Assembly (NCBI RefSeq): GCF_900120155.1
Contig: NZ_LT635549.1
Span: forward strand, 1,892,688 to 1,956,687
DNA length: 64,000 bases
Direction: 5' to 3'
Origin: Clostridium sp. Marseille-P3244
Lineage (GTDB): Bacteria > Bacillota > Clostridia > Lachnospirales > Lachnospiraceae
Shown here: piece by piece, positions 32,740 through 54,960 of the stretch
Layout: each line of letters opens with the position of its first letter
How positions within the stretch are numbered: the first letter of the stretch is position 1
Notes under the pieces: model-generated
What the model saw: only the letters and a program-made list of their open reading frames with translations
Told to the model about the DNA's origin: nothing
Database searches by the model: none
Program-made: the position numbers and the translations under genes

Positions 32740-34473
32740 ATGAAGGTGAAAGGAGTTTCCACCTCTCCTCAGATCGTAATCGGAGAGGTTATGAAGTATG
32801 TTCCTTTTACTTGTGATGCAGAGGTTCGCAAGTATGAAGGAGAGGATCCGGAGACGGAAATCGGGAAATATGAAAGCGCAAAGGCAAAAGCCGCGGAAGA
32901 ATTGCAGAATCTCGGGAATTTTTTAAAGGCGAAAAATTCTTCAAATGCTGATTTTGTTGATGCCCACAGAGAGATACTAAATGACCCGTCCATTGACGCG
33001 GAAGTCCGGCAGATGATCCGGACAGGCTCTTATTATGCTGACGGCGTGATTGCGGCGATCTTTGACCAGTACAGCGAATTGTTTGCGAAGAATAAAAATG
33101 AACTGATCAGAGAGAGAGCTTCCGACCTGCAGGATGTAAAGATGCGCCTGCTCCGCTGTTACTATGGCGAACCGGAAAAAAATCTGGCAAAACTTGACAA
33201 GCCATGCGTTATTGTAACTGAAGAATTATTTCCGTCTGATACACTGTGTATGGATACTTCCAATATCAAAGGGATCATAACAGAACGCGGAAGCCTGACT
33301 TCTCATACCGCTATCATAGCAAGGACTCTGAATATCCCGGCTCTTCTCGGGGCGGAAGGAGTTATGAGAGCGGTGAAGGACGGCGGCTGTGTTGTGCTTG
33401 ACGGCACAGCTCAGGAAGCCGTCATAGGTGCAAAGGCCGGGGAAATTGAAGCATATTCTGAAAAGGCTGTGAAGGTCGAAAAGGATATGGAGATTACCAG
33501 ACTCTATTATGGAAGAGAGCCGGTTACTTCCGACGGCACGAAGATTGATCTGAGGATCAACATCGCATCTGCGGAGTTTGATAAAACAGAGAAAGTATCC
33601 TGCCTTGACGGGGTAGGACTGTTCCGGAGCGAATTTCTGTATCTGTCAGCAAAGGCACTTCCGTCGGAGGAAGAACAGTTTGAGGCGTACAGGAAAATTG
33701 CCGAGATTTTCCGGGAGAAGCCGGTAGTATTAAGAACTCTGGATATCGGAGGAGATAAGCAGGTGCCCTATATGGAACTGCCAAAAGAAGATAATCCGTT
33801 TTTGGGAAACAGAGGACTTCGTCTCTGCCTGAGCAGAGAGGAGATTTTCCGGACGCAGCTGAAAGCCGCTCTACGTGCTTCGGCGTATGGGAATCTGATG
33901 CTGATGTTTCCGATGGTAACATCCATTAATGAGTTCCGGGCTGCCAGAGATATCATCAGAGATGTCATGAGAGAGCTGGACGAAGAAGGAATCGCTTATA
34001 ATAAGGAAATAAAGACAGGTATTATGATCGAGGTGCCATCGATCGCTTTGATCGCTGACCGCATTATCGATGAGATTGATTTTGCCAGTGTGGGAACAAA
34101 TGATCTTTGCCAGTATCTGTGCGCGGCTGACAGGATGAATCATGCTGTAAAAGATTATTATCAGGATTACCATCCGGCAGTTTTCCGGGTATTGAAAAAT
34201 CTGGTCAATGTTTTTGCCGGTACGGGGAAATGTCTGAGTATCTGTGGGGAACTTGCGGGTGATCCTCTGGCCATTCCGCTTCTTGCCGGGCTGGGCATCC
34301 GGACATTAAGCATGAATGATACCTCGATTGCGCGGGCAAAACGTATCATTTGTAATATCAGCCTGGCAGATGCCGAGAAACTCGCCTCGGAAGTGCTGAA
34401 TATGACATCAGACAGAGAGATAGAAGAACGGCTTCATAAATTTCATGATAAAATTCAAGAAAAACAAAATTAA
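32740..34473 (+). CDS. ptsI: PTS enzyme I (phosphoenolpyruvate-protein phosphotransferase)
   Basis: 577 residues, the standard enzyme I length. It takes phosphate from phosphoenolpyruvate and passes it to HPr. The phosphorylated histidine is in GSLTSHTAIIARTLNIPALLG near residue 190. The PEP-binding barrel has GVGLFRSEFLYL, LRTLDIGGDKQ, MLMFPMV, GIMIEVPS, VGTNDLCQY and SICGELAGD. AGAAGGTGTAAAA precedes ATG 32740. It opens the PTS/oxidoreductase locus together with its own HPr gene, 18 bases downstream. Whether it is the cell's only enzyme I or a dedicated paralogue cannot be told from this window. Confidence 0.96.
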   Translation: MKVKGVSTSPQIVIGEVMKYVPFTCDAEVRKYEGEDPETEIGKYESAKAKAAEELQNLGNFLKAKNSSNADFVDAHREILNDPSIDAEVRQMIRTGSYYADGVIAAIFDQYSELFAKNKNELIRERASDLQDVKMRLLRCYYGEPEKNLAKLDKPCVIVTEELFPSDTLCMDTSNIKGIITERGSLTSHTAIIARTLNIPALLGAEGVMRAVKDGGCVVLDGTAQEAVIGAKAGEIEAYSEKAVKVEKDMEITRLYYGREPVTSDGTKIDLRINIASAEFDKTEKVSCLDGVGLFRSEFLYLSAKALPSEEEQFEAYRKIAEIFREKPVVLRTLDIGGDKQVPYMELPKEDNPFLGNRGLRLCLSREEIFRTQLKAALRASAYGNLMLMFPMVTSINEFRAARDIIRDVMRELDEEGIAYNKEIKTGIMIEVPSIALIADRIIDEIDFASVGTNDLCQYLCAADRMNHAVKDYYQDYHPAVFRVLKNLVNVFAGTGKCLSICGELAGDPLAIPLLAGLGIRTLSMNDTSIARAKRIICNISLADAEKLASEVLNMTSDREIEERLHKFHDKIQEKQN

Positions 34474-34491
34474 GAAAGGACGGTGTTTATC

Positions 34492-34758
34492 ATGTACTCA
34501 AAACAGATCAAAGTCGTAAATCCGACAGGGCTTCATGCGAGACCGGCTTCTCAGCTCGTCTCAAAAGCTAACACTTATTCATCAGCTATCATGCTGCGCA
34601 GGGTCGATGAAGAAAGCGAATACAATGTGAAATCTATTGTCATGCTGCTCGCTCTCGGACTTGGGCAGGATGAAGAGGCGGTCCTCTCCGCGGAAGGGGA
34701 AGACGAGGTTGCTGCAGTGAACGAGCTGGCTGAATATATCGAGTCTCTTACAGAATAA
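34492..34758 (+). CDS. HPr-family phosphocarrier protein
   Basis: 88 residues. The phosphohistidine motif is NPTGLHARPASQLV (His about 15), and the serine equivalent to the HPr-kinase site appears in VKSIVMLLALGLGQ (about residue 46). Downstream of that it differs from canonical HPr, reading GLGQDEEAVLSAEGEDE. Start ATG 34492 is preferred over GTG 34483, which is too close to the AAAGGA. It is coupled to ptsI in the same operon. Confidence 0.9.
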   Translation: MYSKQIKVVNPTGLHARPASQLVSKANTYSSAIMLRRVDEESEYNVKSIVMLLALGLGQDEEAVLSAEGEDEVAAVNELAEYIESLTE

Positions 34759-34779
34759 GTTTAGGAAAGGATGTAATTT

Positions 34780-35049
34780 ATGCCAACCGAGATATTATAT
34801 CAAGTTGTAGCCCTGATACTTCTAATTGGCCTGTTGATTTTTGGGATCATTCTGCCGGAACATTTTCGGAAGAAAAAGAGAAATAGTGAACTGAATTCCA
34901 TAGTGCCGGGAGATAAGATCATTACCCAGCAGGGGATCAGAGGCACGGTGGAGGCGGTAGAGAAAGAGCTTCTTACCATCGTCTGTGAACCGGACGGTAT
35001 ACGCCTTCAGATCGCACAGTGGGGTGTGCGAAGTAAACAAGGATCATAA
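34780..35049 (+). CDS. YajC-like single-span membrane protein (first of a tandem pair)
   Basis: 89 residues. One transmembrane helix (about 7-26, VVALILLIGLLIFGIILP) is followed by a basic patch PEHFRKKKRNSELN and the YajC-type beta domain IVPGDKIITQQGIRGTVEAVEKELLTIV. YajC is an accessory of the Sec-SecDF translocase, but no sec genes are nearby. It follows HPr by 21 bases in the same operon, and a second YajC-like gene comes next. Its role in a PTS locus is unknown. Confidence 0.75.
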   Translation: MPTEILYQVVALILLIGLLIFGIILPEHFRKKKRNSELNSIVPGDKIITQQGIRGTVEAVEKELLTIVCEPDGIRLQIAQWGVRSKQGS

Positions 35050-35064
35050 GCATAAGGAGTCGTT

Positions 35065-35469
35065 ATGGGTTATACATTACTGTTTTTTCTAATACTGATG
35101 ATCGCTGTGAATTTCGTGGTCGTCCGGCCGCACAGAAAGAGTTTTAACAAGAGGGCCATTATGCTCAACAGTGTCAAGGCGGGAACGATCGTCTACACGG
35201 TGGATGGTATAAGGGCTGAGGTTGACGCCGTAAACAGAGATGTGATAAGCTTAAATTGTTATCCGGACGGCGTGAAACTTCTCGTTGAATTAGAAGCGGT
35301 TGACAGAATTGAGAATTATGATGAGGAATATGCCCGCCATCTGATGGATGCGAAGATTCAAAAAGGACGCGAAAAATACGGAAAGCGTGTTGCTTCGAGA
35401 AAGCCCAGAAAGCGGGGATTCATGAAAGGACGAGGAGAAGACAGCGGAGAAAATGCACAGAATCTATAG
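35065..35469 (+). CDS. YajC-like single-span membrane protein (second of a tandem pair)
   Basis: 134 residues. The N-terminal helix (about 3-20) is followed by VVVRPHRKSFNKRAIMLNSV and a YajC-type fold, AGTIVYTVDGIRAEVDAVNRDVISLNCYPDGVKLLVE. A long basic tail (KIQKGREKYGKRVASRKPRKRGFMKGRG) is not typical of YajC and could bind nucleic acid, ribosomes or acidic lipids. The PDG-(I/V)-(R/K)-L-x-(I/V/L) segment is shared with its neighbour, so the two are probably paralogues. GGAG precedes ATG 35065. Confidence 0.7.
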   Translation: MGYTLLFFLILMIAVNFVVVRPHRKSFNKRAIMLNSVKAGTIVYTVDGIRAEVDAVNRDVISLNCYPDGVKLLVELEAVDRIENYDEEYARHLMDAKIQKGREKYGKRVASRKPRKRGFMKGRGEDSGENAQNL

Positions 35470-35532
35470 CGCCTGACTGGAGCGTGCAGCCCGGTACTGC
35501 AAATTTTTTAGATGTGAATTGGAGAAATGAAT

Positions 35533-36336
35533 ATGGAAGGACAACAGGGAAAAGATCGGAATCTCACCTACTATGCCGTGGAACGGCAGAGCCGTATCCT
35601 GGACTATATCAATGAGTCAAAGCGTGTCAGCGTTAACGACCTGGCAGAGTATTTTCATGTCAGTCCGTCTACGATAAGGAATGATCTTGCCGTCCTGAAG
35701 AAAGATGGACAGATCCGTCGTACGCACGGAGGTGCTATGGCACTGTCCATAAGTAAAGTGGGACTGGAAGAGAGCATGGATGACCGTTTGACGAATAATA
35801 TGGCCGAGAAAGAAAAAATTGCAAAACTGGCCAGTGATCAGATCGATGATGGTGATACGATCGCGCTTCTTGCGGGAACAACGATCTTTTCGCTGGCCAA
35901 ATACCTTGTAGATAAGAAGAATCTGACAATCGTTCTGAATGATCTTCAGATCGCGTGGTGGCTCAATGAACATACGACCCACAGGCTTTTTATCGTAGGA
36001 GGATTTGTAAGAAATAAATTCCACTGTATGAATTTCGATGCTTCGGCAGTTGATTTCATCAATATTGACAAAGCCTTTTTTTCCTGCACGGCGTTTAGTG
36101 TGGAAAAAGGAGCTATGGTACCTGACTTGAATCTGGCGACAACAGAGCGGTGTATATTAAACAGGGCTGCGACGGTCATCCTGCTCTGTGACAGTTCAAA
36201 ATTTGGAGAGGTTTCCTTTATCAAGGTCGTAGGAGTAAACGACATTGATATGGTGATAACAGACAGTAATCTTCCCAAATTTCACAGAGATACTATGGAA
36301 GCTATTGAACAGCTGGATTTTATTGTCGCTCCATAA
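35533..36336 (+). CDS. DeoR-family transcriptional regulator
   Basis: 267 residues. The N-terminal DeoR helix-turn-helix is RQSRILDYINESKRVSVNDLAEYFHVSPSTIRNDLAVLKKDGQIRRTHGGA (about 15-65). The C-terminal DeoRC sugar-phosphate sensor has TIALLAGTTIFSLAKYL, IVGGFVRNKFHCMN and AATVILLCDSSKFG. GGAG sits 8 bases before ATG 35533, making it better than ATG 35527. DeoR regulators usually bind a phosphorylated sugar made by the pathway they control, so this one probably senses an intermediate of the surrounding locus. Confidence 0.9.
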   Translation: MEGQQGKDRNLTYYAVERQSRILDYINESKRVSVNDLAEYFHVSPSTIRNDLAVLKKDGQIRRTHGGAMALSISKVGLEESMDDRLTNNMAEKEKIAKLASDQIDDGDTIALLAGTTIFSLAKYLVDKKNLTIVLNDLQIAWWLNEHTTHRLFIVGGFVRNKFHCMNFDASAVDFINIDKAFFSCTAFSVEKGAMVPDLNLATTERCILNRAATVILLCDSSKFGEVSFIKVVGVNDIDMVITDSNLPKFHRDTMEAIEQLDFIVAP

Positions 36337-36383
36337 AACAGGCGGATTTGATCGTGATTTTCCCGTATTTGGAGGAAAAAGAA

Positions 36384-37835
36384 GTGTATGATATTGTAAT
36401 TATCGGCGCTGGTGTCAGCGGATGCGCAGTGGCAAAAGAACTTTCCAAATATGAATTGAAGATCTGTGTTCTCGAGAAAGAAACCGATATCTGTGAAGGA
36501 ACCAGCAAGGCCAACAGTGGAATCGTCAATGCAGGATTTGACCCGGAGCCGGGGAAACTGTGCGCAAAATTAAATGCCCCGGGAGCGGAGATGATGGCGC
36601 AGATCGCGGAAGAGCTTGATATTCCCTACAAGCGGAATGGCACAATGGTTGTATGCAGCCATGAGGAATCTCTTCCAATGCTGAAAGTTCTTTATGACCG
36701 TGGAAACGCTAATGGGGTAAAGGGATTAAGGATCTTAAACCGTGAGGAAGCTCTCAGATTGGAGCCCAATCTGGCAGATGCGGTATGCGGGGCATTGCTG
36801 GCGCCCACCGGAGGAATCATATGTCCGTTTACGTTAACGCTGGCCTTCGCGGAAGTGGCTGCCGCGAACGGTGTTGAATTCAGACTGGGAGAGGCGGCCC
36901 TTCATATTGTCAGGGGACAGAACGGGAACGGTTATGAACTGGAAACATCAAAAGGAAAAATTCAAACAAAATATATTATAAATGCAGCCGGAGTCTATGC
37001 GGATGTCTTCCATAATATGGTAAGTGAGAACAAGATCCATATTATGCCCAGAAAGGGAGAATACTGTCTGATGGACAAGATTCCTGAAGACTATCTTCAT
37101 CATACTATTTTTCCGGTGCCTACGGCAATGGGGAAAGGAGTTATTGTTTCTCCGACAGTGCATGGCAACATGCTGATTGGCCCGACTGCGGTGGATATAG
37201 AAGATAAGGAAGACACATCAACGACAGCCGAGGGACTGTCCCAGGTGATCAAGATGTCTGCCTTTTCTGTGAAAAATATTCCGTACCGGTCCATTATCAC
37301 TTCCTTTGCGGGGCTGAGAGCACATGAAGACGGTGATGATTTTATTATTGAAGAAGTAAGGGACGCAAAAGGGTTTATAGATGTCGCGGGGATCAAATCT
37401 CCCGGACTTGCCAGTTCACCTATGATCGCTCTTTATGTCAGGGATATTCTGGCGGGGATGTGCGAGCTGAAGGAAAAGAAAGAATATGTGACAAAACGCA
37501 GGGGGATCATCCGGTTTGCGGATCTGCCTCTGGAGGAGCAGGAGGCTCTGATTCGAAAAGATCCGGCTTACGGGCGTATTGTCTGCCGATGTGAGAAAGT
37601 GACAGAGGGAGAGATCATTGATGCGATCCGAAGACCTCTGGGAGCCAGGACAATGGATGGGATCAAACGGAGGACAAGAGCCGGCATGGGAAGGTGCCAG
37701 GCCGGGTTCTGTACCCCGAGAACAATGGAAATTTTGTCAAGAGAACTGGGAATCGGAATGGAAGAGATATGCAAAAACCGGCCGGGTTCTGCTTTGATCA
37801 AAGGACTGAACAAAGACAGGATTCAGGGGGTGTGA
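36384..37835 (+). CDS. GlpA-like FAD-dependent oxidoreductase with C-terminal [2Fe-2S] domain
   Basis: About 483 residues. The FAD Rossmann motif is IVIIGAGVSGCAVAKELS at the start, then GTSKANSGIVNAGFD and the DAO-fold core (INAAGVYAD, GLRAHEDGDDFIIEE). The C-terminal BFD-like cluster domain has RIVCRCEKVTEGEIIDAIRR and GMGRCQAGFCTP. This layout matches anaerobic glycerol-3-phosphate dehydrogenase subunit A-type proteins and 2-hydroxyacid oxidases. GTG 36384, 8 bases after GGAGG, is the likely start. It is the first of three closely spaced genes, with a 4-base gap to the next. Confidence 0.85.
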   Translation: MYDIVIIGAGVSGCAVAKELSKYELKICVLEKETDICEGTSKANSGIVNAGFDPEPGKLCAKLNAPGAEMMAQIAEELDIPYKRNGTMVVCSHEESLPMLKVLYDRGNANGVKGLRILNREEALRLEPNLADAVCGALLAPTGGIICPFTLTLAFAEVAAANGVEFRLGEAALHIVRGQNGNGYELETSKGKIQTKYIINAAGVYADVFHNMVSENKIHIMPRKGEYCLMDKIPEDYLHHTIFPVPTAMGKGVIVSPTVHGNMLIGPTAVDIEDKEDTSTTAEGLSQVIKMSAFSVKNIPYRSIITSFAGLRAHEDGDDFIIEEVRDAKGFIDVAGIKSPGLASSPMIALYVRDILAGMCELKEKKEYVTKRRGIIRFADLPLEEQEALIRKDPAYGRIVCRCEKVTEGEIIDAIRRPLGARTMDGIKRRTRAGMGRCQAGFCTPRTMEILSRELGIGMEEICKNRPGSALIKGLNKDRIQGV

Positions 37836-37839
37836 GCGG

Positions 37840-39108
37840 ATGGAAAGGCATGAATTGGTTATTATCGGTGGGGGACCGGCCGGACTGGCCGCCGCCGTGT
37901 CTGCAAGAGAGCATGGGCTGGAGGACATCCTGATCCTGGAGAGAGACAGTGAATTGGGTGGAATCCTGAATCAGTGTATCCATAATGGGTTTGGACTGCA
38001 TACGTTTCAGGAAGAGCTTACCGGCCCGGAATATGCATCCAGATATGTATCCAAGGTAAAGGAACTGGAAATTCCCTGGTCAGCTGACACGATGGTTCTG
38101 GATATAACACGGGACAAGGTGATCACAGCTGTTTCCAGGACAGAAGGGATCCGAACGATCCGGGCCGGCGCTGTTATCCTGGCAATGGGGTGCAGAGAAC
38201 GTCCCCGGGGCGCGCTGAACATTCCCGGGCAGAGACCCGCGGGGATCTATACGGCAGGGACTGCTCAGAGGCTGGTGAATATAGAGGGATTTCTTCCCGG
38301 ACGGGAAGTTGTTGTTCTCGGCTCAGGGGATATCGGTCTGATCATGGCAAGACGTATGACTCTGGAAGGAGCTCAGGTGAAGGCGGTCGTAGAACTGATG
38401 CCGTTTTCAGGAGGACTGAAAAGAAATATCGTACAGTGCCTGGATGATTTCGGGATTCCCCTGAAACTTGGCCATACGATCATTGACATCAAAGGAAAAG
38501 AGCGCGTAGAGGAAGTGACTATCGCGGAAGTGGACGGACAGAAGCGTCCCATTCCCGGTACAGAAGAGACTTATTCCTGTGATACGATTCTCCTTTCCTG
38601 CGGACTGATCCCGGAGAATGAGCTGACAAAGCAGATGGGGGCAGAGCTAAGTGACGTGACGGGAGGTCCGATCGTTGATGAAAGTCTGGAGACGGATATC
38701 CCCGGTGTATTTGCCTGTGGAAATGTTCTTCATGTGCATGACCTGGTTGATTATGTCTCGGAGGAGGCTTCCCGTGCGGGAGCCCATGCCGCGGCCTATT
38801 TAAGAGGAGAACAGAAAAGACGGGAGCCGTCCCGCTCTGTGTGGCTGCGCTCGGGGGGCGGAGTGCGCTATACGGTACCGGCCTCTGTGCAGGAAGACAG
38901 GATCACGGAGGATATTGTAATACGGTTCCGGGTAGGAGATGTGGCAAAGAACTGTTATTCCTCTCTGTATATCAATGGAACACGAGTTTTGCATAAGAAA
39001 CGGGCGATCGTAACGCCTGGTGAAATGGAGGAACTGAAGCTTACGAAAAAAGCGCTGAAAGAAGCGGGAGGCCTCAGAGATATCCTTGTGACACTGGAGT
39101 CCGAGTGA
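37840..39108 (+). CDS. FAD/NAD(P)-dependent oxidoreductase
   Basis: 422 residues. Two dinucleotide-binding motifs are visible: LVIIGGGPAGLAAAVSARE at the start (FAD) and VVVLGSGDIGLIMARRM near 165 (NAD(P)). GVFACGNVLHVHD marks the second FAD site. It resembles the electron-input subunits found beside GlpA-like proteins and opine oxidases. It follows the previous gene by 4 bases and precedes a DUF1667 gene, a recurrent three-gene set in Bacillota often annotated as a glycerol-3-phosphate dehydrogenase system. The true substrate is not known. Confidence 0.85.
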   Translation: MERHELVIIGGGPAGLAAAVSAREHGLEDILILERDSELGGILNQCIHNGFGLHTFQEELTGPEYASRYVSKVKELEIPWSADTMVLDITRDKVITAVSRTEGIRTIRAGAVILAMGCRERPRGALNIPGQRPAGIYTAGTAQRLVNIEGFLPGREVVVLGSGDIGLIMARRMTLEGAQVKAVVELMPFSGGLKRNIVQCLDDFGIPLKLGHTIIDIKGKERVEEVTIAEVDGQKRPIPGTEETYSCDTILLSCGLIPENELTKQMGAELSDVTGGPIVDESLETDIPGVFACGNVLHVHDLVDYVSEEASRAGAHAAAYLRGEQKRREPSRSVWLRSGGGVRYTVPASVQEDRITEDIVIRFRVGDVAKNCYSSLYINGTRVLHKKRAIVTPGEMEELKLTKKALKEAGGLRDILVTLESE

Positions 39109-39127
39109 ACGACAGGGGGTGAAAGGA

Positions 39128-39511
39128 TTGCCAAAAGAAGAGAAGAACAGTAATATTCACGAGCTGACATGTATCGGCTGCCCTCTGGGATGCGCTGTCC
39201 GTGTGGAAATGGCGGAAGGAAAGGCAGTGTCTGTCACCGGATATACATGCAGGCGGGGAAAAGAATATGCGGTCAAAGAGGTTACTGCCCCGACAAGGAT
39301 CGTTACGTCCACAGTGCGCCTGGAAGGGAGAGAACATCTGGTTTTACCGGTCAAGACAGAGCGGGACATTCCGAAAAATAAGATCATGGAATGTGTGTCT
39401 GCGTTAAAGAATGTGGCGGTCAGGCCTCCTGTCCATATCGGTCAGGTCATTCTGGAAAATGTGGCCGGAACCGATATCCCTGTTGTAGCGACAAAAAATA
39501 TCAATGAATAA
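39128..39511 (+). CDS. DUF1667 cysteine-rich protein
   Basis: About 127 residues. The N-terminal ELTCIGCPLGCAVRVEM and YTCRRGKEYAVKE segments supply a CxxCxxxC plus a further cysteine, a likely Fe-S or metal site. The rest is the DUF1667 domain (PTRIVTSTVRLEG, LPVKTERDIPKNKI). It is the usual third member of the GlpA-like/FAD-NAD set. Start uncertain: TTG 39128 follows AGGGGG by about 7 bases; GTG 39119 overlaps that site. The 3' end overlaps the convergent SorC gene by 11 bases. Confidence 0.82.
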   Translation: MPKEEKNSNIHELTCIGCPLGCAVRVEMAEGKAVSVTGYTCRRGKEYAVKEVTAPTRIVTSTVRLEGREHLVLPVKTERDIPKNKIMECVSALKNVAVRPPVHIGQVILENVAGTDIPVVATKNINE

Positions 39512-40499
39512 ATGGCTTTGCCTCAGGGTCTGAGATTTCGAGGAGTTCTCTGGCCAGATCATAGTCCACGATCAGGACGTCTGCCAGGCCTCCCCGAAGG
39601 ATGGCCCGCATGGTATATGCCTTTTTTTTATCTGCGGCGACAATTACCTTTGTCGGAATCTTTTTATATTCATCAAAGTCAATTGACAATGTACGGTCTT
39701 TAAGAGAAGTGTCACACTCCTGGCCGTTTTCATCAAAAAATCTCAACAAAATATCACCATATACTCCCTTTCTCTTTAATTCCCCCCATTCTTCGGAAGT
39801 CAGATAGTGGTAATCTTTTGCCAGAAGAGGAGAATCCATGTCCGGATATAATGAACCGCATCCGGATACGGAGACAGTGATCCTGGAGAACAATTCTTTG
39901 ACAATGCGATTCTGCTTCATTGACAACACGTCGGCAAGATGCCTGGGGGAACTGCAGAGTGCGTTGGAGGTAAAATAGAATTTTTTTCCGCCGAAAGCCA
40001 TCGCGATCCTGGATACCAGATTTTTTACATCATAGGAATACTGGCAATGGGCTACGCTTCCGTGGAGAGTCACAAAAGAATTATTAATTTTCAGGCAGGG
40101 GTTCAGGACCTGGATCAAATAGTTTATCGTCCTTCCCCAGGCGATACCGAAAACATCATTGTCATCTATGATACGCTGCAGGAAACGGGCTCCTTCCAGT
40201 GCCACGGCATGTCTTGCCGAAGCCGGATCAGAAGAGCCTTCCGCGGGAACCACAATAGTCTCTCTGAGCCCGTACCGGGTCCGGATCTCTTCTGCTATGC
40301 GCAGACAGTGTGCATAGGGTTCGTTTACGCGGAAAGAGATGATCCCCTGAGTTTTTGATTTGGTTAAAAGCCGGGAAACTGTGGAAGGAGAAATATTCAA
40401 TATTCCTGCGATCTCTTTCCCGGAAAGACCATCTATATAGTAGAGGCTGGCTGCCTTCATAGCCAGCCAGCTGGACTGAGAATAAACTTCGCTTTTCAA
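39501..40499 (-). CDS. SorC-family sugar-binding transcriptional regulator
   Basis: 332 residues. The N-terminal helix-turn-helix is MKAASLYYIDGLSGKEIAGILNISPSTVSRLLTKSKTQGII, and the sugar-phosphate domain has VFGIAWGRTINYLIQVL, GSVAHCQYSYD and RGGLADVLIVDYDLARELLE. On the minus strand AAAGGAG is followed 8 bases later by TTG at 40499, preferred over an upstream in-frame ATG at 40553. It is divergent from the first RuBisCO-like gene, which it probably controls; a candidate operator lies between them. SorC regulators respond to phosphorylated sugars or polyols. Confidence 0.88.
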   Translation of the reverse strand: MKSEVYSQSSWLAMKAASLYYIDGLSGKEIAGILNISPSTVSRLLTKSKTQGIISFRVNEPYAHCLRIAEEIRTRYGLRETIVVPAEGSSDPASARHAVALEGARFLQRIIDDNDVFGIAWGRTINYLIQVLNPCLKINNSFVTLHGSVAHCQYSYDVKNLVSRIAMAFGGKKFYFTSNALCSSPRHLADVLSMKQNRIVKELFSRITVSVSGCGSLYPDMDSPLLAKDYHYLTSEEWGELKRKGVYGDILLRFFDENGQECDTSLKDRTLSIDFDEYKKIPTKVIVAADKKKAYTMRAILRGGLADVLIVDYDLARELLEISDPEAKPFIH

Positions 40500-40566
40500 A
40501 ACAGACACTCCTTTCAGACAGAGTTTCAGATAGATCAGAATTAAGTCTGCCATTTCCTATTTATTA

Positions 40567-44142: not shown

Positions 44143-44156
44143 GAGGATATGCAATT

Positions 44157-46517: not shown

Positions 46518-46562
46518 TAGGGGAAAACTACTTTAATAATTTAGGGAAACTATATTAATCAT
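46518..46562. repeat. Imperfect 22/23-bp tandem repeat upstream of RuBisCO-like gene 2
   Basis: TAGGGGAAAACTACTTTAAT (46518-46537) is echoed by TTAGGGAAACTATATTAATC (46541-46560). It lies in the only sizeable gap of the operon and could be a regulator site or an RNA element. Confidence 0.4.
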
Positions 46563-46597
46563 CATAATAAAAAATAATAAGACAGGAGGAAAGAAAG

Positions 46598-47914: not shown

Positions 47915-47969
47915 GACGAGTATCTGACAGGATTGATTTCATATTCAGTAAGAAAGGCGTTTGGCCGTG

Positions 47970-48800
47970 ATGAAAAATTCTCTGTATAAAGCGGTGGCAG
48001 TCGATCTGGACGGAACACTGCTGAATTCAAGACATAATGTTGACCGGGAGTCACTGGATGCCCTGAATCGACTGCGCCGCGCAGGGATAGAAGTGATCGC
48101 TATCACAGGACGGACTTTATATGAAGCCGCGCATGTTGTCAAACCATTTTTGGATATTACGAGAGATACGATCGTTCTTCAGGCCGGGAGTCTTATCATT
48201 CAATACAGAGAGAGGAAGATGACCACGGATCTGATGCTGATGAGTGACAGCGATAAAGAGAAACTGGTCTCGATCGGGAAAAAACATGGATTCCCGCCTC
48301 TTGTCTGTGTTGACAATGAGATGTGTACGGAAAAGCATGATAATCCGGCATATCCGCCCTATGAGAGCATGATGAGCCACAATATCGTGTTTGTGGATGA
48401 CCTTATGGATTTTGCACTTTCCAATCCGGTCGGCAAGATCGCCATGGTCTGCGAGAATCATATTCTCCGGGAGATGGAGAAGGATATGAAGAAAGCAGGG
48501 ATTGAAAGTGCCTGGGGCTGGTCATATGCGGAGGGGATCGATGTGTGTGCCCGCAATAAGAAACGGGCGCTGATGGATCTTCTGGAGCGGATGAACATCA
48601 CCAGAGAAGAACTGGTAACTGTTGGCGACAGCAACAATGATCTGGAGATGATCCAGTTCGGAGGCCTTGGCGTTGCAATGGCAAATTCAACCCGGGAGCT
48701 GATCGACGCGGCAGATTATGTGACTCTGGACAATGACCATAACGGCGTCGCACACCTGATCGATCACGTAATTTTGTCAGATTACACGAAGGGAAAATAG
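47970..48800 (+). CDS. Cof-type HAD phosphatase
   Basis: About 276 residues. Motif I is VAVDLDGTLLNSRHNV at the N-terminus, motif II VIAITGRTLYEA, and the C-terminal acidic motif is TVGDSNNDLEMIQFGGLGVAMANS, with the large C2 cap in between. Cof-type enzymes dephosphorylate sugar phosphates. ATG 47970 or GTG 47967 are the plausible starts after AAAGG. It lies between the RuBisCO-like gene and the PTS IIA gene and may remove phosphate from a pathway product or drain a toxic sugar phosphate. Confidence 0.85.
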   Translation: MKNSLYKAVAVDLDGTLLNSRHNVDRESLDALNRLRRAGIEVIAITGRTLYEAAHVVKPFLDITRDTIVLQAGSLIIQYRERKMTTDLMLMSDSDKEKLVSIGKKHGFPPLVCVDNEMCTEKHDNPAYPPYESMMSHNIVFVDDLMDFALSNPVGKIAMVCENHILREMEKDMKKAGIESAWGWSYAEGIDVCARNKKRALMDLLERMNITREELVTVGDSNNDLEMIQFGGLGVAMANSTRELIDAADYVTLDNDHNGVAHLIDHVILSDYTKGK

Positions 48801-48804
48801 CACT

Positions 48805-49290
48805 ATGAGCATTCAGAAAATGACGACAAATACGAAACTGATCCTTCTGAAACAGAAATTTAAAGATTCTGAGGAAGTGATCTCTACTTTGGGAAAGCTG
48901 GCAATGGAGCAGGGGCTTGTAAACGAGGATTATTTGCCGGCGATACTGGAGCGGGAAAAAAATTACCCCACCGGCCTTGATCTGCCGGTCAATATCGCCA
49001 TTCCTCATATTGATACAGGCGTGAACAGATCCTTTGTCAGCATTGCCACATTGGAGGAACCTGTTACATTTTACAATATGGACTGCTCCGGGTCAGAGGT
49101 GAAGGCACGGATTGTATTTGTTTTTGGGATCATGGATCCCAAGGATCAGCTTGCAATCCTGAGAAAATTTGCCGGATCTTTTGCAGACAAAGGGAAGATC
49201 CAGCCGCTGCTGGACGCGCAGGACCCGGAAGAACTGATCAGACTTCTGAACGAGCTGCTGGATCAGATGCTGGCGGTAGAAGAAATCTAG
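48805..49290 (+). CDS. PTS IIA component, fructose/galactitol type
   Basis: 161 residues of the mannitol/fructose-type IIA fold. The phosphorylated histidine is in LPVNIAIPHIDTG (about residue 70), and AILRKFAGSFADK matches the C-terminal helix region. It takes phosphate from HPr and gives it to IIB. It starts 5 bases after the HAD gene and precedes IIB and IIC, giving a split gatABC-like layout. Confidence 0.9.
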   Translation: MSIQKMTTNTKLILLKQKFKDSEEVISTLGKLAMEQGLVNEDYLPAILEREKNYPTGLDLPVNIAIPHIDTGVNRSFVSIATLEEPVTFYNMDCSGSEVKARIVFVFGIMDPKDQLAILRKFAGSFADKGKIQPLLDAQDPEELIRLLNELLDQMLAVEEI

Positions 49291-49360
49291 ATGTTCCTGA
49301 TTATAATTCTGATCGTAAAAGATTCAGAATTTTAAAATAAAAGAGAAAGGAGGATACATC

Positions 49361-49660
49361 ATGAGAACAGTGAAACTTGCAGTATGCTGCGGCGGAGGTA
49401 TTTTTACGACTTCTGTAGTTACGGAGGAGATCGAGAAACTCCTGAAAAAAGAGGGGATCCCATATTCGATCACACCTCAGAAACTTGTTGAAATCCCGTC
49501 CCTTACCGGACTGGATGTGATCGTGGCTACAGGAAAGACCTCAGCCAAAAACGGCGAGGGAACTCCGGTGCTGATCGGCCTGCCTATGTTTACCGGCGTT
49601 GGAAAAGAGGAGTTCTCCAAGGAACTTGTTAAGACAATTCACGAAATAGTTGGAGAATAA
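49361..49660 (+). CDS. PTS IIB component, galactitol type
   Basis: 99 residues. The phosphocysteine loop is AVCCGGGIFTTSVV at residues 8-21, as in GatB-type IIB proteins (CGxGxxxS/T). AAAGGAGGATACATC precedes ATG 49361. It passes phosphate from IIA to the incoming substrate bound by IIC. Confidence 0.92.
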   Translation: MRTVKLAVCCGGGIFTTSVVTEEIEKLLKKEGIPYSITPQKLVEIPSLTGLDVIVATGKTSAKNGEGTPVLIGLPMFTGVGKEEFSKELVKTIHEIVGE

Positions 49661-49688
49661 GTGAAAACTGAAAGGAGGGGAACCTTTT

Positions 49689-51134
49689 ATGTTAGAGCAA
49701 ATAGGTGTTATCTTTAAAACATTTATGGACACCTTCGGCGCTTCAATACTGGTGCCGCTTATTGTATTTATTTTAAGTCTTATTTTGAGAGTAAAGCCGA
49801 TGCAGGCATTCCGTGCGGCCATATTCATGGCCATTGGTCTGACCGCGTTCAATATTATCCTGGGCATCCTGATGGATGAGATGGGTACGGTCATGCCGCT
49901 CATGAGCGAGAACACAGGAAGAACATTCGACGTTGTCGATGTGGGATGGCCTGCAGCTGCAACAATTGTTTACAACAATTCCCTGGGTTATATTTACCTG
50001 GTTGTCGGACTGATCTGGAACGTTGTGCTGTTCCTTCTGAAGGTTACAGATACATTTGAGCCAACAGATATCTGGAATTATTACTTCTTCGTCACATATG
50101 CGATCTGTGTTCAGTTCGTAACGGGAAGCTTTGTACTGGGTCTGATCTGTGCGTTGTTCTGCAATCTGTTTGTGTTGCTTATCTCCGACGCGATCGCGCC
50201 GGCGGCGCAGGAATATTATGGCTATGACGGATTGACATGTACCTGTATCAGCTGTTCCAATATCGCGATCTTTGCGGCTGTCTGCAATATTCTTTTCAAG
50301 AAGATCGGTCTTGGAAGAGTAAAGGTCAACCCGGATACGATCAACAAGAGACTCGGCTTCTTTGGCGAGCCTGCGATGATCGGTGTTATCCTTGGTCTCA
50401 TCATGGGGATCATTGCCTATGTGCATGATCTTGGAAATGCTTCCACATGGGCAGCGATCCTGACATTCGCGTTTACCATCGCGGCCATGCTTGTGATTTA
50501 TCCTACCGTTTCAGGTATGTTCGTCCGTGGACTGATCCCGATCAGTAATACACTGAACGCAAGGATGCGCAGCGGCAACATGAAACGTAAATACTTCATC
50601 CTCGGTATTGACCCGGCTGTCTTCTTTGGTGAGACTGCGAATATGACGACGGGCGTACTTTTGATGCCGATTTTGATCCTTACCGCTATCATCCTTCCGG
50701 GCAACCGTCTGATCCCGCTGGGCGACATTTCGTCGATCCCGTTCATGGTGATCGGATGTACCTGTGTATTCCAGGGCGATATTCTGAAGTCCACGATCTG
50801 CGGTACGATCTACGGATCCTGTGCGCATCTGATCGCGACAGATATGGCGGAACTGTTCACAAATGCCGCGGTGCAGGCAGGCTTTGAAATGGCAGAAGGA
50901 CAGGCATTTGTAGGCAGCTGGCTTGTATCCGCTCAGCCGCCGCTTTGGGTCTTCTATAAATGCTTCTCAGCATCAGGAAGCCTGAAGTACATTCTGATCG
51001 CTGTTCTTGTCGTGCTTTATGTGGCGGCTCTTGTACACTTCAAGAAACACCGCAAAGGCTGGTACAAATTCTTTGGTGCTTCCGAAGAATTTGCAAATAA
51101 ATTTATGGGAATTGAGACAGCGGAGAATGCTTAA
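49689..51134 (+). CDS. PTS IIC component, galactitol type (first copy)
   Basis: 481 residues with multiple membrane spans, matching GatC-type IIC. Recognisable segments: VGWPAAATIVYNNSLGYIY, ITNEE/FTDE-like loops, TINKRLGFFGEPAMIGVILGL, YPTVSGMFVRGLIPIS and ILPGNRLIPLGDI. The family moves galactitol and other polyols or pentoses. AAGGAGGGGAACCTTTT precedes ATG 49689. A terminator follows at 51155. A close homologue lies at 53515. Confidence 0.92.
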   Translation: MLEQIGVIFKTFMDTFGASILVPLIVFILSLILRVKPMQAFRAAIFMAIGLTAFNIILGILMDEMGTVMPLMSENTGRTFDVVDVGWPAAATIVYNNSLGYIYLVVGLIWNVVLFLLKVTDTFEPTDIWNYYFFVTYAICVQFVTGSFVLGLICALFCNLFVLLISDAIAPAAQEYYGYDGLTCTCISCSNIAIFAAVCNILFKKIGLGRVKVNPDTINKRLGFFGEPAMIGVILGLIMGIIAYVHDLGNASTWAAILTFAFTIAAMLVIYPTVSGMFVRGLIPISNTLNARMRSGNMKRKYFILGIDPAVFFGETANMTTGVLLMPILILTAIILPGNRLIPLGDISSIPFMVIGCTCVFQGDILKSTICGTIYGSCAHLIATDMAELFTNAAVQAGFEMAEGQAFVGSWLVSAQPPLWVFYKCFSASGSLKYILIAVLVVLYVAALVHFKKHRKGWYKFFGASEEFANKFMGIETAENA

Positions 51135-51237: not shown

Positions 51238-52962
51238 ATGTCTGAAAATCAAAAAAAACCATTAAAACTGGTCGTAGTCGGCGGAGTGGCCGGCGGAGCT
51301 TCAGCAGCCGCACGTGTACGGCGTCTGGATGAAAAAGCAGAGATCGTAATGTTTGAAAAAGGCCGGCATGTGTCCTTTTCAAACTGCTGCCTTCCGTATC
51401 ATCTGAGCGGGACGATCGCGGACAGCGAAGATCTTGTACTGATGACTCCGGAAAAGTTCCGTTCCCAGTATAATATCGATGCCAGGACGGACAGCGAAGT
51501 GACCGGCATCGACAGAGACAGAAAATGCGTAACAGTAAAAAACCTGCTTACCGGGGAAACTTATGAAGAATCTTTTGATAAACTGGTGCTTTCTCCGGGG
51601 GCAAATCCGATTTTTCCGTCAAGTATTGAAGGGATCGAACGTGAAAACGTATACGCGGTCCGAAATGTGGAGGATATCCGCGCGCTGAAAGCAGCTGCTG
51701 AGAAGGAAGGCACAGATAACATCGCAGTAGTCGGCGGAGGATTTATCGGGATTGAAGTGGCGGAAAATCTGAGAAACGCGGGGAAAAATGTAAGTGTGAT
51801 CGAAGGCACAGAACAGATTATGCCTCCCTTTGATTATGATATGGTCCAGATCCTTCATAAAGAACTGGATGACAACGGGGTATCGCTCTACGTATCCACT
51901 ACGGTTACAGCTATCGGAGACAGATGGGTCAAAGCCATAAAAAATGGAAAAGAATTAGAGATACCCGCGGATATCGTCGTGATGGCGGCCGGGGTCGCTC
52001 CGGAAACGAAACTTGCAAAACAGGCAGGACTGGAGATCGGCAAGACCCGCGGGATTAAAGTCAATCATAATTATCAGACCAGTGATCCGGATATCTATGC
52101 AGTCGGTGACGCCATCGAGATATTTCAGGATCTGACACATGCCGAAGGCCGCCTTGCGCTGGCAGGTCCGGCTCAATGGCAGGCCCGTGCCGCGGCGGAC
52201 CATATATGCGGAACCTGCGGCCGAAGGAAAGGATATATCGGATCTTCCTGTATCCGGGTATTCGGCCAGAATGCGGCTGCCACCGGACTGAGTGAAAAAG
52301 CGGCGGAAAGGGCAGGGTATACATATGACTCTGTACTGGTCTTTCCACCGGATAAGGTGGGATTGATGCCGGAAAGCCATTATCTGGCATTTAAGCTGAT
52401 ATTTGAGGTCCCGACAGGCAGGATCCTGGGCGCTCAGGCTATCGGAAAGGGAGAAGCAGACAAGCGGGTGGATGTGATCGCTGCCATGATTACGATGAAC
52501 GCGACCCTGGAAGATCTCAAAGACCTGGAACTGTGCTATTCTCCGGTGTTCGGGACAGCCAAGGATGTGGTGAATCAGGCCGCTCTGGTAGGGTTAAATA
52601 TCCTGTACGGGAAATATAGACAGGTACATGTGAACGAGGTGCGCGGCCTGGTAGAAAAAGGCGCGTATATCATTGACGTGCGCGAGGAACCGGAGTTTGC
52701 CGCGGGCCATTTAAAGGGAGCCCATAATATCCCGCTGAGCCGGCTGCGCTCCCGTATGGATGAGATCCCGCGCGATCTGCCGGTTTATCTGCACTGCCGG
52801 TCCAGCCAGAGAAGCTATTATGCGCTGTGCTGTCTGCAGGGAGCCGGATTCCGTAACCTGTATAATATCAGCGGTTCCTATCTGGGGATCAGTCTGTACG
52901 AATATTTTAATGATAAGACAGAAGGGCGGACGCCCATTCTTGACCGGTACAATTTTAATTAA
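51238..52962 (+). CDS. CoA-disulfide reductase-like flavoprotein fused to a rhodanese domain
   Basis: 574 residues. FAD motif LVVVGGVAGGASAAARVRRLD, then the single active cysteine of this family in SFSNCCLPYHLSG (about residue 45). NAD(P) motif NIAVVGGGFIGIEVAENLR near 160, FAD closure YAVGDAIE. The C-terminal rhodanese domain (about 470-560) has IIDVREEPEFAAGHLKGAHNIP and the sulfur-carrying cysteine in LHCRSSQRSY. Such CoADR-RHD enzymes reduce CoA-persulfide or CoA disulfide. TAAGGAGAGACAGAGG precedes ATG 51238. It may maintain thiol redox or supply electrons to the locus. Confidence 0.9.
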   Translation: MSENQKKPLKLVVVGGVAGGASAAARVRRLDEKAEIVMFEKGRHVSFSNCCLPYHLSGTIADSEDLVLMTPEKFRSQYNIDARTDSEVTGIDRDRKCVTVKNLLTGETYEESFDKLVLSPGANPIFPSSIEGIERENVYAVRNVEDIRALKAAAEKEGTDNIAVVGGGFIGIEVAENLRNAGKNVSVIEGTEQIMPPFDYDMVQILHKELDDNGVSLYVSTTVTAIGDRWVKAIKNGKELEIPADIVVMAAGVAPETKLAKQAGLEIGKTRGIKVNHNYQTSDPDIYAVGDAIEIFQDLTHAEGRLALAGPAQWQARAAADHICGTCGRRKGYIGSSCIRVFGQNAAATGLSEKAAERAGYTYDSVLVFPPDKVGLMPESHYLAFKLIFEVPTGRILGAQAIGKGEADKRVDVIAAMITMNATLEDLKDLELCYSPVFGTAKDVVNQAALVGLNILYGKYRQVHVNEVRGLVEKGAYIIDVREEPEFAAGHLKGAHNIPLSRLRSRMDEIPRDLPVYLHCRSSQRSYYALCCLQGAGFRNLYNISGSYLGISLYEYFNDKTEGRTPILDRYNFN

Positions 52963-53023
52963 TTAAAGAGAAAGTCTGTATGTAAAACAATAAAGATTTT
53001 ATTTGAAACAGGAGGTGGAAAAA

Positions 53024-53458
53024 GTGTTAACTGCAAAAGACGTGGGCCCCGGGTTCGACCAGGGAATATGTTGTGCCATGGCTGTATTCGGTGAACTGGC
53101 TGAGGATGTAGGACTGGATAAAAAAACTGCATACAAGATAGCGTCCGGCTTTGGTTCCGGGATCGGCTATGGAAACGCATGCGGCTGTGTTACCGGCGCG
53201 ATCATGGCGCTGGGGTACAAATACGGCAATTTTGAACCCGGCCAGCTGGAGCAGAAAGAGATCATGAAGGAAAAAAGAGAGGCGTTCCTGAAGGAATACA
53301 AGAAAAGGTTCGGACATTTTAACTGTCAGGAGCATCTCGACAATCTGAATCCAATGGATCCAGATGACCGCAAGATCATAGATGAGCGCGAACTGATGTA
53401 CACAGTATGCCCGCCGATGGTGGCTGCTACATGTGAGATCGTCCGCAGTTTATTGTGA
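53024..53458 (+). CDS. C_GCAxxG_C_C family cysteine protein
   Basis: 144 residues. The family core is visible as GFDQGICCAMAVFGE, ASGFGSGIGYGNACGCVTGAIMALG and the late NCQEHL and YTVCPPMVAATCEIV, the spaced cysteines probably holding a metal or redox centre. The family is typical of anaerobes and often sits beside transporters and redox enzymes, but its function is unproven. GTG 53024 follows AGGAGGT by 8 bases and is the likely start. Confidence 0.85.
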   Translation: MLTAKDVGPGFDQGICCAMAVFGELAEDVGLDKKTAYKIASGFGSGIGYGNACGCVTGAIMALGYKYGNFEPGQLEQKEIMKEKREAFLKEYKKRFGHFNCQEHLDNLNPMDPDDRKIIDERELMYTVCPPMVAATCEIVRSLL

Positions 53459-53514
53459 TCTGTGTTATGAGGGATTTTTTATAAGAGAATAAAGATTAGA
53501 GGAGGTGCATTTTT

Positions 53515-54960
53515 TTGTTAGATACAATTAGTGTTGCGTTTAAGTCGTTTATGGATATTTTCGGCGCTCAGCTCCTGGTGCCGATGGTAGTGTTTATACT
53601 CAGCCTTATCCTGAGGGTCAAGCCAAAGCAGGCGTTCCGCGCGGCGATCTATATGGCGATCGGACTGGTTGCTTTCAATATTATCCTCGGAATCCTGATG
53701 GGACAGATGGAAAGTGTAATGACCCTGATCAGTTCCAACACAGGGAAAGTATTTGATGTTGTGGATGTAGGCTGGCCGGCGGCTGCTACGATCGTGTATA
53801 ATAATTCACTTGGTATGCTGTACCTGGTGATCGGTCTGATCTGGAATCTTGTTCTGTTCCTTCTGAAAGTGACAGATACCTTTGAGCCTACAGACATCTG
53901 GAATTATTATATTTTTGTAACGTTTGCGGTGTGCGTACAGTTTGTGACCGGAAGTTTTGCTCTCGGTCTGGCATGTGCGATGTTCAGCAACCTGTTCGTT
54001 CTGCTGACCGCGGATGCCCTTGCACCTGCGCTGCAGGAATATTATGGATATGACGGGCTGACATGTACCTGTATCAGTAATGTGTGCAGCGTATACATCG
54101 GCGGCGTTCTCAATATTCTTTTCAAGAAGATTGGGTTCGGAAGAGTACATATCAATCCGGAATCGATCAACAAGAGGCTGGGATTCTTTGGTGAGCCGCC
54201 TATGATCGGTACGATCCTGGGTATCCTGATGGGTATAATCGCCTATATCAATGTCCTTGGGGATGCTTCTACATGGGCTACGATCCTGACATTCGCATTT
54301 ACGCTTGCGGCGATGCTCGTGATCTATCCCACGGTTTCCGGCCTGTTTGTGCGCGGCCTGATACCGATCAGCAACACAATGAATGCAAGAATGAGAAGCG
54401 GCGAGATCAAGAGGAAGTACTTCCTGATCGCTATCGATCCGGCGGTGTATTTTGGTGAAACTGCAAATATGACAGCAGGTATCATCCTGATCCCGATCCT
54501 GATCCTGACAGCCATCATCCTTCCCGGGAACCGTCTGGTACCGCTGGCGGACCTTCCGGCGATCCCGTTCATGGTGATCGGACTGACTGCCGCGTTCCAG
54601 GGCGATATCCTGAAATCTGTGATCGGTGGCACCATCTGGGGTTCCATTGCCCACCTGATCGCCACGGATATGGCGACGACATTTACACAGGCGGCCATAA
54701 CTGCGGGATTTGAACTGTCCGAAGGACAGACTTTCGTCGGAAGCTGGCTTGTGTCCTGTAATCCGTTTTCCTGGATTTTCTATAAATGCTACTCCGTAGA
54801 CGGAGCACTGAAGTTTGTTCTGATCGCACTTTTGATCGCGGTCTATGCTGTGGCGCTCATTCACTTCAAGAAACACCGCAGAGGCTGGTATAAGTTCTTT
54901 GGTGCTACAGACCCATTCATTGACAAGTATATGGGTGTTGCGCCGGCGGAGGAAGCGTAA
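53515..54960 (+). CDS. PTS IIC component, galactitol type (second copy)
   Basis: 481 residues, the same length as and highly similar throughout to the IIC at 49689 (shared VGWPAAATIVYNNSLG, FEPTDIWNYY, SINKRLGFFGEPPMIG, SGLFVRGLIPIS). It has no IIA or IIB beside it and so probably shares those at 48805 and 49361. Differences cluster in the central and C-terminal parts (for example SNVCSVYIGG for SCSNIAIFAA), which could alter substrate choice. The start is TTG 53515, 8 bases after GGAGGT; no suitable ATG is near. Confidence 0.9.
   Translation: MLDTISVAFKSFMDIFGAQLLVPMVVFILSLILRVKPKQAFRAAIYMAIGLVAFNIILGILMGQMESVMTLISSNTGKVFDVVDVGWPAAATIVYNNSLGMLYLVIGLIWNLVLFLLKVTDTFEPTDIWNYYIFVTFAVCVQFVTGSFALGLACAMFSNLFVLLTADALAPALQEYYGYDGLTCTCISNVCSVYIGGVLNILFKKIGFGRVHINPESINKRLGFFGEPPMIGTILGILMGIIAYINVLGDASTWATILTFAFTLAAMLVIYPTVSGLFVRGLIPISNTMNARMRSGEIKRKYFLIAIDPAVYFGETANMTAGIILIPILILTAIILPGNRLVPLADLPAIPFMVIGLTAAFQGDILKSVIGGTIWGSIAHLIATDMATTFTQAAITAGFELSEGQTFVGSWLVSCNPFSWIFYKCYSVDGALKFVLIALLIAVYAVALIHFKKHRRGWYKFFGATDPFIDKYMGVAPAEEA

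Follow-up and report, generated by a model that had tools for sequence, protein, structure and literature searches.

A RuBisCO-like protein linked to a galactitol-type phosphotransferase system and to GlpABC relatives lacking iron-sulfur ligands in Clostridium sp. Marseille-P3244

Gene content and conservation of the locus

A stretch of 64,000 nucleotides from Clostridium sp. Marseille-P3244 (hereafter the window; genome size 2.97 Mb), which its relatives would group with the Lachnospiraceae, carries between positions 32740 and 54960 a locus made up of two modules, each with its own RuBisCO-like protein (RLP). Module 2 comprises a GlpA-like and a GlpB-like flavoprotein, a third gene of 345 aa, RLP2, a galactitol-type (Gat-type) phosphotransferase system (PTS) and, usually, a Cof-type phosphatase, whereas RLP1, 45% identical to RLP2, belongs to a separate module (Table 1). 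The most unusual feature of the locus is the loss of iron-sulfur (Fe-S) ligands from GlpA and the third gene. Module 2 (42511-51134), together with the enzyme I (EI) and HPr unit, may form a pathway that breaks down a polyol or a similar compound, and this is the reading that we favor.

Pfam and NCBIfam models were scanned over 21 genes of the interval; short antisense open reading frames (ORFs) lay outside the scan, except for one of 598 aa, which gave no match. All elements listed in an initial annotation of the letters alone, i.e., EI, HPr, IIA and IIB, two EIIC proteins, two GlpA-type sets, two RLPs, a Cof phosphatase and DeoR and SorC regulators, were recovered within the interval by family. 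The same annotation saw no aldolase, kinase or conventional isomerase gene here, in line with the lack of any match to sugar kinase, aldolase and conventional sugar isomerase families among the 21 genes. It also reported little unrelated material, a description that has to be corrected, as two YajC-like proteins, a CoA-disulfide-reductase/rhodanese (CoADR) protein and a C_GCAxxG_C_C (CGCA) protein lie between these genes. Spacing and strands suggest three transcription units: EI-HPr-YajC-YajC-DeoR-GlpO2-NoxA-DUF1667, the divergent pair SorC and RLP1, and GlpA-GlpB-third gene-RLP2-Cof-IIA-IIB-IIC-CoADR-CGCA-IIC2.

An alignment of both RLPs was scanned over 84,980 species genomes and returned 71 loci (L numbers below; G numbers denote genomes), a search that relies on two short peptide patterns and may have missed members. 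Eight of these loci (at least 70% identity), one locus from G138 and the window make up the RLP2-clade set, and in all ten GlpA, GlpB, the third gene and RLP2 follow one another in this order and are accompanied by Gat IIA, IIB and IIC. A Cof-like gene is present in eight of the ten modules, the window counted. In L005 (11318-13036) this protein is a fusion of Cof with a PHP domain, and the place of Cof in L007 (11344-12273, PHP-like by its start) and L070 is taken by a shorter ORF that clusters with the L005 fusion. Purifying selection on the module genes was shown in the pairs tested, the ratio of nonsynonymous to synonymous substitution rates (dN/dS) being 0.009-0.145 across gene pairs with estimable dS.

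Co-occurrence across genomes, which the initial annotation had proposed to search for, was found: of 397 genomes from this family, four carry the third gene (E ≤ 1e-10), four the GlpA-like protein (E ≤ 1e-60) and four an RLP2-clade gene, and at these thresholds the carriers are identical, with no exception. Any RLP or RuBisCO occurs in 25 of the 397 (E ≤ 1e-30). G308, the one further member of the window's genus in this sample, is without all three, and in a 391-genome sample of the class the third gene was found in no genome but that of the window. G036 and G214, which we take as the genomes of L010 and L006, would belong to the same family as the window.

A similar triad of PTS, GlpA-type dehydrogenase and RLP occurs in G504, from another class of the same phylum, where SorC is followed on the opposite strand by EI-IIA-IIB-IIC-HPr-RLP (RLP1 type)-GlpA-GlpB-GlpC. 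The GlpC of this cluster has ferredoxin and CCG domains, as in canonical GlpABC, and its GlpA shows the four BFD cysteines by alignment, the Pfam BFD model giving no match at E 0.001. Since this GlpA is only 32% identical to that of the window and the accompanying RLP falls in the RLP1 clade, the triad seems to have arisen twice. Of 20 genomes in the G504 class, nine contain an RLP at E ≤ 1e-100; only the C133 copy of G504, which was itself one row of the query, comes near the G504 score. The single EIIC-GAT gene found in each of G036 and G504 is the cluster's own. An RLP is likewise joined to a Gat PTS in L034 and L042, where the neighbors include an AraD/fuculose-phosphate-aldolase-like gene (below cut-offs) and a gene of the class II ketose-bisphosphate-aldolase family. 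The single pathway of the initial annotation is thus well supported as regards the PTS, the GlpA-type proteins and RLP2, which would belong together on the strength of the ten loci, the 397-genome co-occurrence and the G504 triad; its inclusion of both RLPs did not hold (see below).

Table 1. Features of the locus, with positions in the window and family evidence
Feature	Position	Strand	Evidence
PTS enzyme I	32740..34473	+	Pfam PEP-utilisers N/mobile/C
HPr	34483..34758	+	PTS-HPr; TIGR01003 over cut-off
Two small YajC-like proteins	34780..35469	+	PF02699
DeoR-family regulator	35527..36336	+	PF00455/PF08220
GlpO2-type flavoprotein (BFD [2Fe-2S] domain), NAD(P)/FAD oxidoreductase and DUF1667	36348..39511	+	
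SorC-family regulator	39501..40553	-	PF04198; divergent from RLP1
RLP1, RuBisCO-like protein	40705..42021	+	RuBisCO_large 190.8 bits
Palindrome TTGACA-N7-TGTCAA, candidate operator	42470..42488	+	Before GlpA
GlpA-like FAD dehydrogenase	42511..44142	+	DAO match; no Fer2_BFD match
GlpB-like flavoprotein	44157..45461	+	FAD_binding_2; best GlpB models 172 and 156 bits, under cut-off
Third gene, 345 aa, GlpC descendant without Fe-S ligands	45480..46517	+	
RLP2, RuBisCO-like protein of module 2	46598..47914	+	RuBisCO_large 145.1 bits
Cof-type HAD phosphatase	47961..48800	+	TIGR00099 153.8 bits, cut-off 137
PTS IIA	48805..49290	+	PF00359 103 bits; galactitol IIA model best, under cut-off
PTS IIB	49361..49660	+	Galactitol IIB model 40.4 of 95 bits; PTS_IIB 21.5 of 23.6
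PTS IIC, EIIC-GAT family	49689..51134	+	PF03611 223.2 bits, cut-off 24.2
CoADR/rhodanese protein and C_GCAxxG_C_C protein	51238..53458	+	
Second EIIC-GAT (IIC2)	53515..54960	+	213.5 bits, cut-off 24.2

Within the PTS, the two EIIC-GAT proteins are 74% identical to each other, and neither reaches the galactitol-specific model TIGR00827 (278.5 and 259.9 of 542.2 bits). EI has three matches over cut-off genome-wide, i.e., two further full-length copies outside the locus. The YajC-like pair lies inside a PTS operon; YajC-like genes also occur in four other modules (L003, L004, L010 and L073), and DeoR-like regulators similar to that of the window are present in the same four. The GlpO2-type flavoprotein scores below the cut-off of the type 2 glycerol-3-phosphate oxidase model (309 of 460 bits). 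In L034, relatives of the CoADR/rhodanese and C_GCAxxG_C_C proteins are found in the neighborhood of a Gat PTS and an RLP1-type gene, and a group II intron reverse transcriptase/maturase (30992-32392) stands immediately upstream of the EI unit. As for regulation, the palindrome before GlpA is the sole exact match of its sequence in the window and recurs upstream of GlpA in L003 and in none of the eight other modules. An inverted-repeat search gave no operator common to all three units, and the catabolite-control pattern has one match in the window, at 29948, outside the locus.

Iron-sulfur ligands of GlpA and the third gene

The GlpA-like and GlpB-like proteins fall below the equivalog cut-offs of TIGR03377 (471.7 of 552.8 bits) and TIGR03378 (156.4 of 174.15 bits), respectively. 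The BFD cysteines 434, 436, 470 and 475 of E. coli GlpA correspond to D, T, D and S in the window protein, and all four of these [2Fe-2S] cysteines are lost in nine of the ten module GlpAs, the tenth, L006, keeping all. Among control GlpAs, 27 of 29 keep all four cysteines, and the other two are without the C-terminal BFD domain. These controls were drawn from a 299-genome sample of the phylum with 32 matches besides the window's own genome, three of which, without a locus, were left out; the two proteins without the C-terminal domain entered the cysteine count and were excluded from the tree and from the tables of near-invariant columns. At 91 columns that are near-invariant among 28 controls (the 27 and E. 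coli), 64 are kept in all nine Fe-S-free GlpAs. Those changed in all ten modules, L006 included, are R49, G52, L53, F93, R247, I256, P259, T269 and T356 (E. coli numbering, with M at 356 in E. coli itself), and because of these replacements the substrate of the GlpA-like protein likely differs from that of GlpA.

The third gene had no Pfam or NCBIfam match at E 0.001, and no Fe-S family matched any of seven third-gene proteins at E 1. Direct profile comparison with canonical GlpC, represented by two sequences, was not significant either (probability 1.8%, E 0.027). The link is provided by the Fe-S GlpC of L006, to which the window protein is 27% identical over 329 residues (E 2e-26). This GlpC has both ferredoxin motifs (Pfam Fer4-type matches), and its CCG motifs are already altered with respect to two canonical GlpCs, one CCG stretch matching weakly at 25.5 bits. 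In the nine loci other than L006, seven of the eight ferredoxin cysteines are replaced. By way of L006, the third gene is thus traced to GlpC as a descendant that has lost its Fe-S ligands, and its dN/dS of 0.05-0.12 (three of four pairs computable; rough values, as dS is 1.1-3.2) shows that it is conserved rather than decaying. The initial label "GlpABC-like" is apt in that GlpA and GlpB are homologues and the third gene is GlpC-derived, but too generous in that both flavoproteins miss their cut-offs and the third carries no Fe-S ligands.

In the GlpA tree, the nine Fe-S-free proteins group together (100/99) and L006 branches outside them as their sister, a topology that fits a single loss of the GlpA ligands. 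Unlike its GlpA, the RLP2 of L006 sits inside the module clade (Shimodaira-Hasegawa-like approximate likelihood ratio test, SH-aLRT, 99; quick method), which points to either an exchange of genes or the regain of an Fe-S complex by L006. The notion of L006 as a basal lineage, true in the GlpA tree, is contradicted by this nesting and was rejected. In its ligand content L006 is an intermediate. A difference in menaquinone between hosts of the Fe-S-free complex and Fe-S hosts was looked for through menD, which was below cut-off in all five genomes searched, the Fe-S hosts G214 and G504 included.

The four GlpA [2Fe-2S] ligands and seven of the eight GlpC ferredoxin ligands are lost in the same nine loci, in subunits that keep 64 of 91 near-invariant GlpA columns and are under purifying selection. 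This would also suit a redox-neutral module in which, for want of an Fe-S route to a quinone, GlpA oxidizes one carbon and the GlpB flavin returns the electrons to another carbon or intermediate, the complex and RLP2 together rearranging a sugar-alcohol phosphate with no outside acceptor. Such an arrangement is improbable, since L006, with ferredoxin and BFD ligands in a matching operon context, points to electron export being compatible with the pathway, and a soluble acceptor is simpler. The locus is also a natural example of ligand loss from a multi-cluster Fe-S complex with conserved subunits, for which L006 provides an intermediate, and the module could be useful for asking what purpose GlpC serves when it carries no electrons.

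The RLP1 module and the active site of RLP2

RLP1 is part of a separate, SorC-linked module, and its neighbor in the window is a flavoprotein set in which the Fe-S domain has been retained. A SorC gene lies near the RLP1-clade RLP in 12 of 13 loci (window and L003 excluded; L072 holds a fragment only). The further partners vary: the GlpO2/NoxA/DUF1667 set and an FGGY kinase in L023-L025 (Eubacterium-type genomes), an FGGY kinase, an AraM-like dehydrogenase and a NagD-like phosphatase in L166 and L025, a PTS and GlpABC in L163, and a PTS and CoADR in L034. A single pathway employing both RLPs was rejected because the two are separable: they lie 1.25 Mb apart in G138, RLP2 is present without RLP1 in G036 and G214, and RLP1 goes with SorC and changing partners. 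The closest relative, L003, has a whole RLP2 and an RLP1 split in two (3969-5051 onward), either by an assembly error or by decay.

Phosphorylation, oxidation and an RLP are also found together, with other enzymes (FGGY kinase; AraM-like or GlpO2-type), in L023-L025 and L166. The succession of a kinase or PTS, a dehydrogenase that acts next to the phosphate and an RLP is a recurring pattern, not a universal one. Outside both clades, an FGGY kinase lies within 2.8 kb in 39 of 54 RLP loci. RLPs of Deltaproteobacteria and Thorarchaeota (many of L026-L071) stand near such a kinase, and a glutamate-1-semialdehyde-aminotransferase-like gene occurs in 30 of the 54. In nine loci of this set (L009, L011-L015, L017, L043 and L067), the genes after a Syntrophomonas-type RLP are two of PEP_hydrolase type, one resembling 2-phosphosulfolactate phosphatase and UPF0261.

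The RLP tree comprised 83 rows, after removal of rows shorter than 330 aa or with stops (L072 and L067 among them) and of L165, a duplicate of L016. The RLP2 clade (10 rows) and the RLP1 clade (14 rows) each have an SH-aLRT of 100, and RLP2 and MtnW fall in one 16-row set (SH-aLRT 99), MtnW on a long branch. Neither RLP is a bona fide RuBisCO, both being under the RuBisCO model cut-offs. Residues were compared by alignment to the form I RuBisCO of C. necator, numbered as in spinach. RLP2 and its nine orthologues keep the catalytic residues, with E60, T65, W66, N123, K175, K201, D203, E204, H294 and K334 all in place, and carry C, P, I and A instead of K177, R295, H327 and S379, which we take to be the second phosphate site of RuBisCO. 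With these residues gone, RLP2 would fit a monophosphate substrate.

The best NCBIfam models for both RLPs are those of 2,3-diketo-5-methylthiopentyl-1-phosphate (DK-MTP-1-P) enolase, with cut-offs of 409 and 513.6 bits. From this ranking the RLPs could be ordinary methionine-salvage enzymes that stand beside a sugar operon by chance, but RLP2 (374 and 334.7 bits) stays under both equivalog cut-offs, as does RLP1 (368.2 and 313). The gene mtnA was not found in the window's genome, against matches in 9 of 14 control genomes, and RLP2 is linked to PTS and Glp genes in all ten loci. The active site differs as well: E60, N123 and K334 are replaced in MtnW by G, K and S, and position 123 is Asn in RLP1 and in all ten module RLPs, the Lys of MtnW at this position being the general base, K98, of the G. 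kaustophilus enolase. With mtnA absent, the enolase Lys replaced and a different active site, methionine salvage was rejected and has very little probability left.

The grouping of RLP2 with MtnW, on its long branch, would accord with an enolase-phosphatase pair, in which RLP2 would enolize a diketo- or keto-1-phosphate and Cof would dephosphorylate the product, as MtnW and MtnX do, on a polyol-derived compound. RLP2 adjoins Cof, each module has either a Cof-like gene or, in L007 and L070, the ORF of the PHP-Cof cluster, and the MtnW and MtnX genes are adjacent in a B. velezensis record. We nevertheless consider this unlikely, since RLP2 has Asn where MtnW has Lys at position 123 and keeps E60 and K334, which are changed in MtnW, and no diketone-forming dehydratase was matched among the locus genes scanned.

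Alternatively, RLP2 could act on C-C bonds (aldol-like cleavage, decarboxylation or transcarboxylation), as RLPs of apionate pathways do; such reactions are described in a review (PMC6302742). The retained RuBisCO catalytic residues and the lack of an aldolase match in the locus would accord with this chemistry, yet the OiaX model, with a cut-off of 700 bits, scores 186.9 for RLP2 (206.4 for RLP1), no acid-sugar kinase was matched in the locus, a polyol route supplies no carboxyl group, and L034 and L042, which combine an RLP with a Gat PTS, have aldolase-like neighbors of their own. This role for RLP2 is accordingly held to be of low probability.

A putative pathway and its relation to known systems

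The gene identities, linkage, co-occurrence and ligand loss, and the purifying selection in the pairs tested, are observations; substrate, direction of flow, RLP reaction and electron acceptor are inferred. GlpA-type enzymes place a keto group beside the phosphate-bearing carbon, and the glycerol-1-phosphate dehydrogenase family carries out the equivalent oxidation from the mirror configuration; with partners of these types, the substrate of the RLP would be something like a 2-ketose-1-phosphate. In the favored reading, the Gat-type PTS, judging by its family, would import a polyol and leave it with a terminal phosphate. By analogy with GlpA chemistry, the GlpA-like and GlpB-like flavoproteins and the GlpC remnant would then oxidize the carbon adjoining the phosphate to yield the 2-ketose-1-phosphate, an oxidation that an AraM-like, GlpO2-type or canonical GlpABC enzyme could perform equivalently in RLP1-clade loci. 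RLP2, in which the enolization machinery of RuBisCO is retained without the residues for a second phosphate, would enolize the ketose-1-phosphate and shift the carbonyl along the chain, a reaction like that of the R. rubrum RLP on 5-methylthioribulose-1-phosphate. The product would be a central metabolite in either case, a pentulose-5-phosphate from five carbons or an aldotetrose-4-phosphate from four, and the Cof phosphatase may clear or finish phosphorylated products. With a pentulose-5-phosphate as product, neighbors such as those upstream of the module in L005 would be expected, i.e., genes for an FGGY kinase, L-ribulose-5-phosphate 3-epimerase (UlaE) and 4-epimerase (AraD), with a UPF0047 gene between. 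For the scheme as a whole, from PTS to carbonyl shift, we see the chances as evenly balanced.

Several points weigh against it. To our knowledge, no electron path leads out of an Fe-S-free GlpAB, and a phosphatase appears superfluous for a simple carbonyl shift. Positions G403 and G404, which we take to be the first phosphate site of RuBisCO, are Ala in all ten module RLPs. The ten module loci are homologous copies, four carriers among 397 genomes is a small number, and the kinase and epimerase neighbors occur in L005 only, where the kinase reaches no equivalog cut-off. For L008, the nearest RLP outside the RLP2 clade (54%), neither GlpA nor a PTS gene is seen on the contig of 7.7 kb, and in L016 and L164 (RLPs at 46-50%) an FGGY kinase stands instead. 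Within the RLP1 clade, PEP_hydrolase-like genes accompany the RLP in five of 13 loci (L019, L021, L022, L167 and L168), where neither a kinase nor a Gat PTS nor an FAD dehydrogenase lies within reach, EI and HPr being near two of them; the short loci L020 and L072 show SorC only.

In its most far-reaching form, the proposal would amount to a new two-step shortcut from a PTS-derived polyol phosphate to a central sugar phosphate, in which an Fe-S-free GlpABC descendant and an RLP acting as ketose-1-phosphate isomerase replace routes of NAD-dehydrogenases and multiple isomerases, the clusters having been lost stepwise under selection (CCG first, then the ferredoxin and BFD ligands). This extended form is tentative, and we lean toward expecting that it will not hold in full. 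Conserved gene order and co-occurrence tie an RLP to a GlpA-type dehydrogenase and a PTS. This link narrows the substrate to something like a ketose-1-phosphate and makes a direct functional test possible.

Searches of the open-licence literature listed no paper on an RLP combined with a PTS, galactitol, a polyol or glycerol-3-phosphate dehydrogenase, and the RLP reactions in the sources consulted concern sulfur salvage or apiose-derived acids. According to one report, RLPs of R. rubrum and R. palustris carry out the 1,3-isomerization of 5-(methylthio)ribulose-1-phosphate (PMC5893883). The module resembles these DeepYkr RLPs in using, by our reading, an RLP on a 2-ketose-1-phosphate in a catabolic route; it is set apart, by gene content rather than by sequence comparison, in that the window genome is without mtnA and the partners are a PTS and GlpA/B. 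In Bacillus, two sources assign MtnW and MtnX to methionine salvage as DK-MTP-1-P enolase and phosphatase (PMC6302742, PMC3698126). Here too an RLP adjoins a HAD phosphatase, and these enolases give the best NCBIfam models and the nearest solved structures of RLP2, which differs in its E60, N123 and K334 residues and in the lack of any other methionine-salvage gene match in the locus.

The RLPs of D-apionate breakdown, OiaX and a transcarboxylase/hydrolase, likewise serve carbohydrate catabolism, although their substrates are acid sugars; plasmid matches that carry the name oiaX share 27.6-29.4% identity with RLP2 (best 30 of 365 records). In the erythritol pathway of Brucella (EryA/EryB), phosphorylation is followed by GlpD-like oxidation beside the phosphate. 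The order of steps proposed for the module would be the same, with an RLP where Brucella has the isomerases EryC, EryH and EryI. Finally, E. coli GlpABC shares with the module its three-gene order, the homology of GlpA and GlpB and the GlpC ancestry of the third gene, whereas the module GlpA is without [2Fe-2S] ligands, the cluster ligands of GlpC are lost and several near-invariant GlpA residues are replaced.

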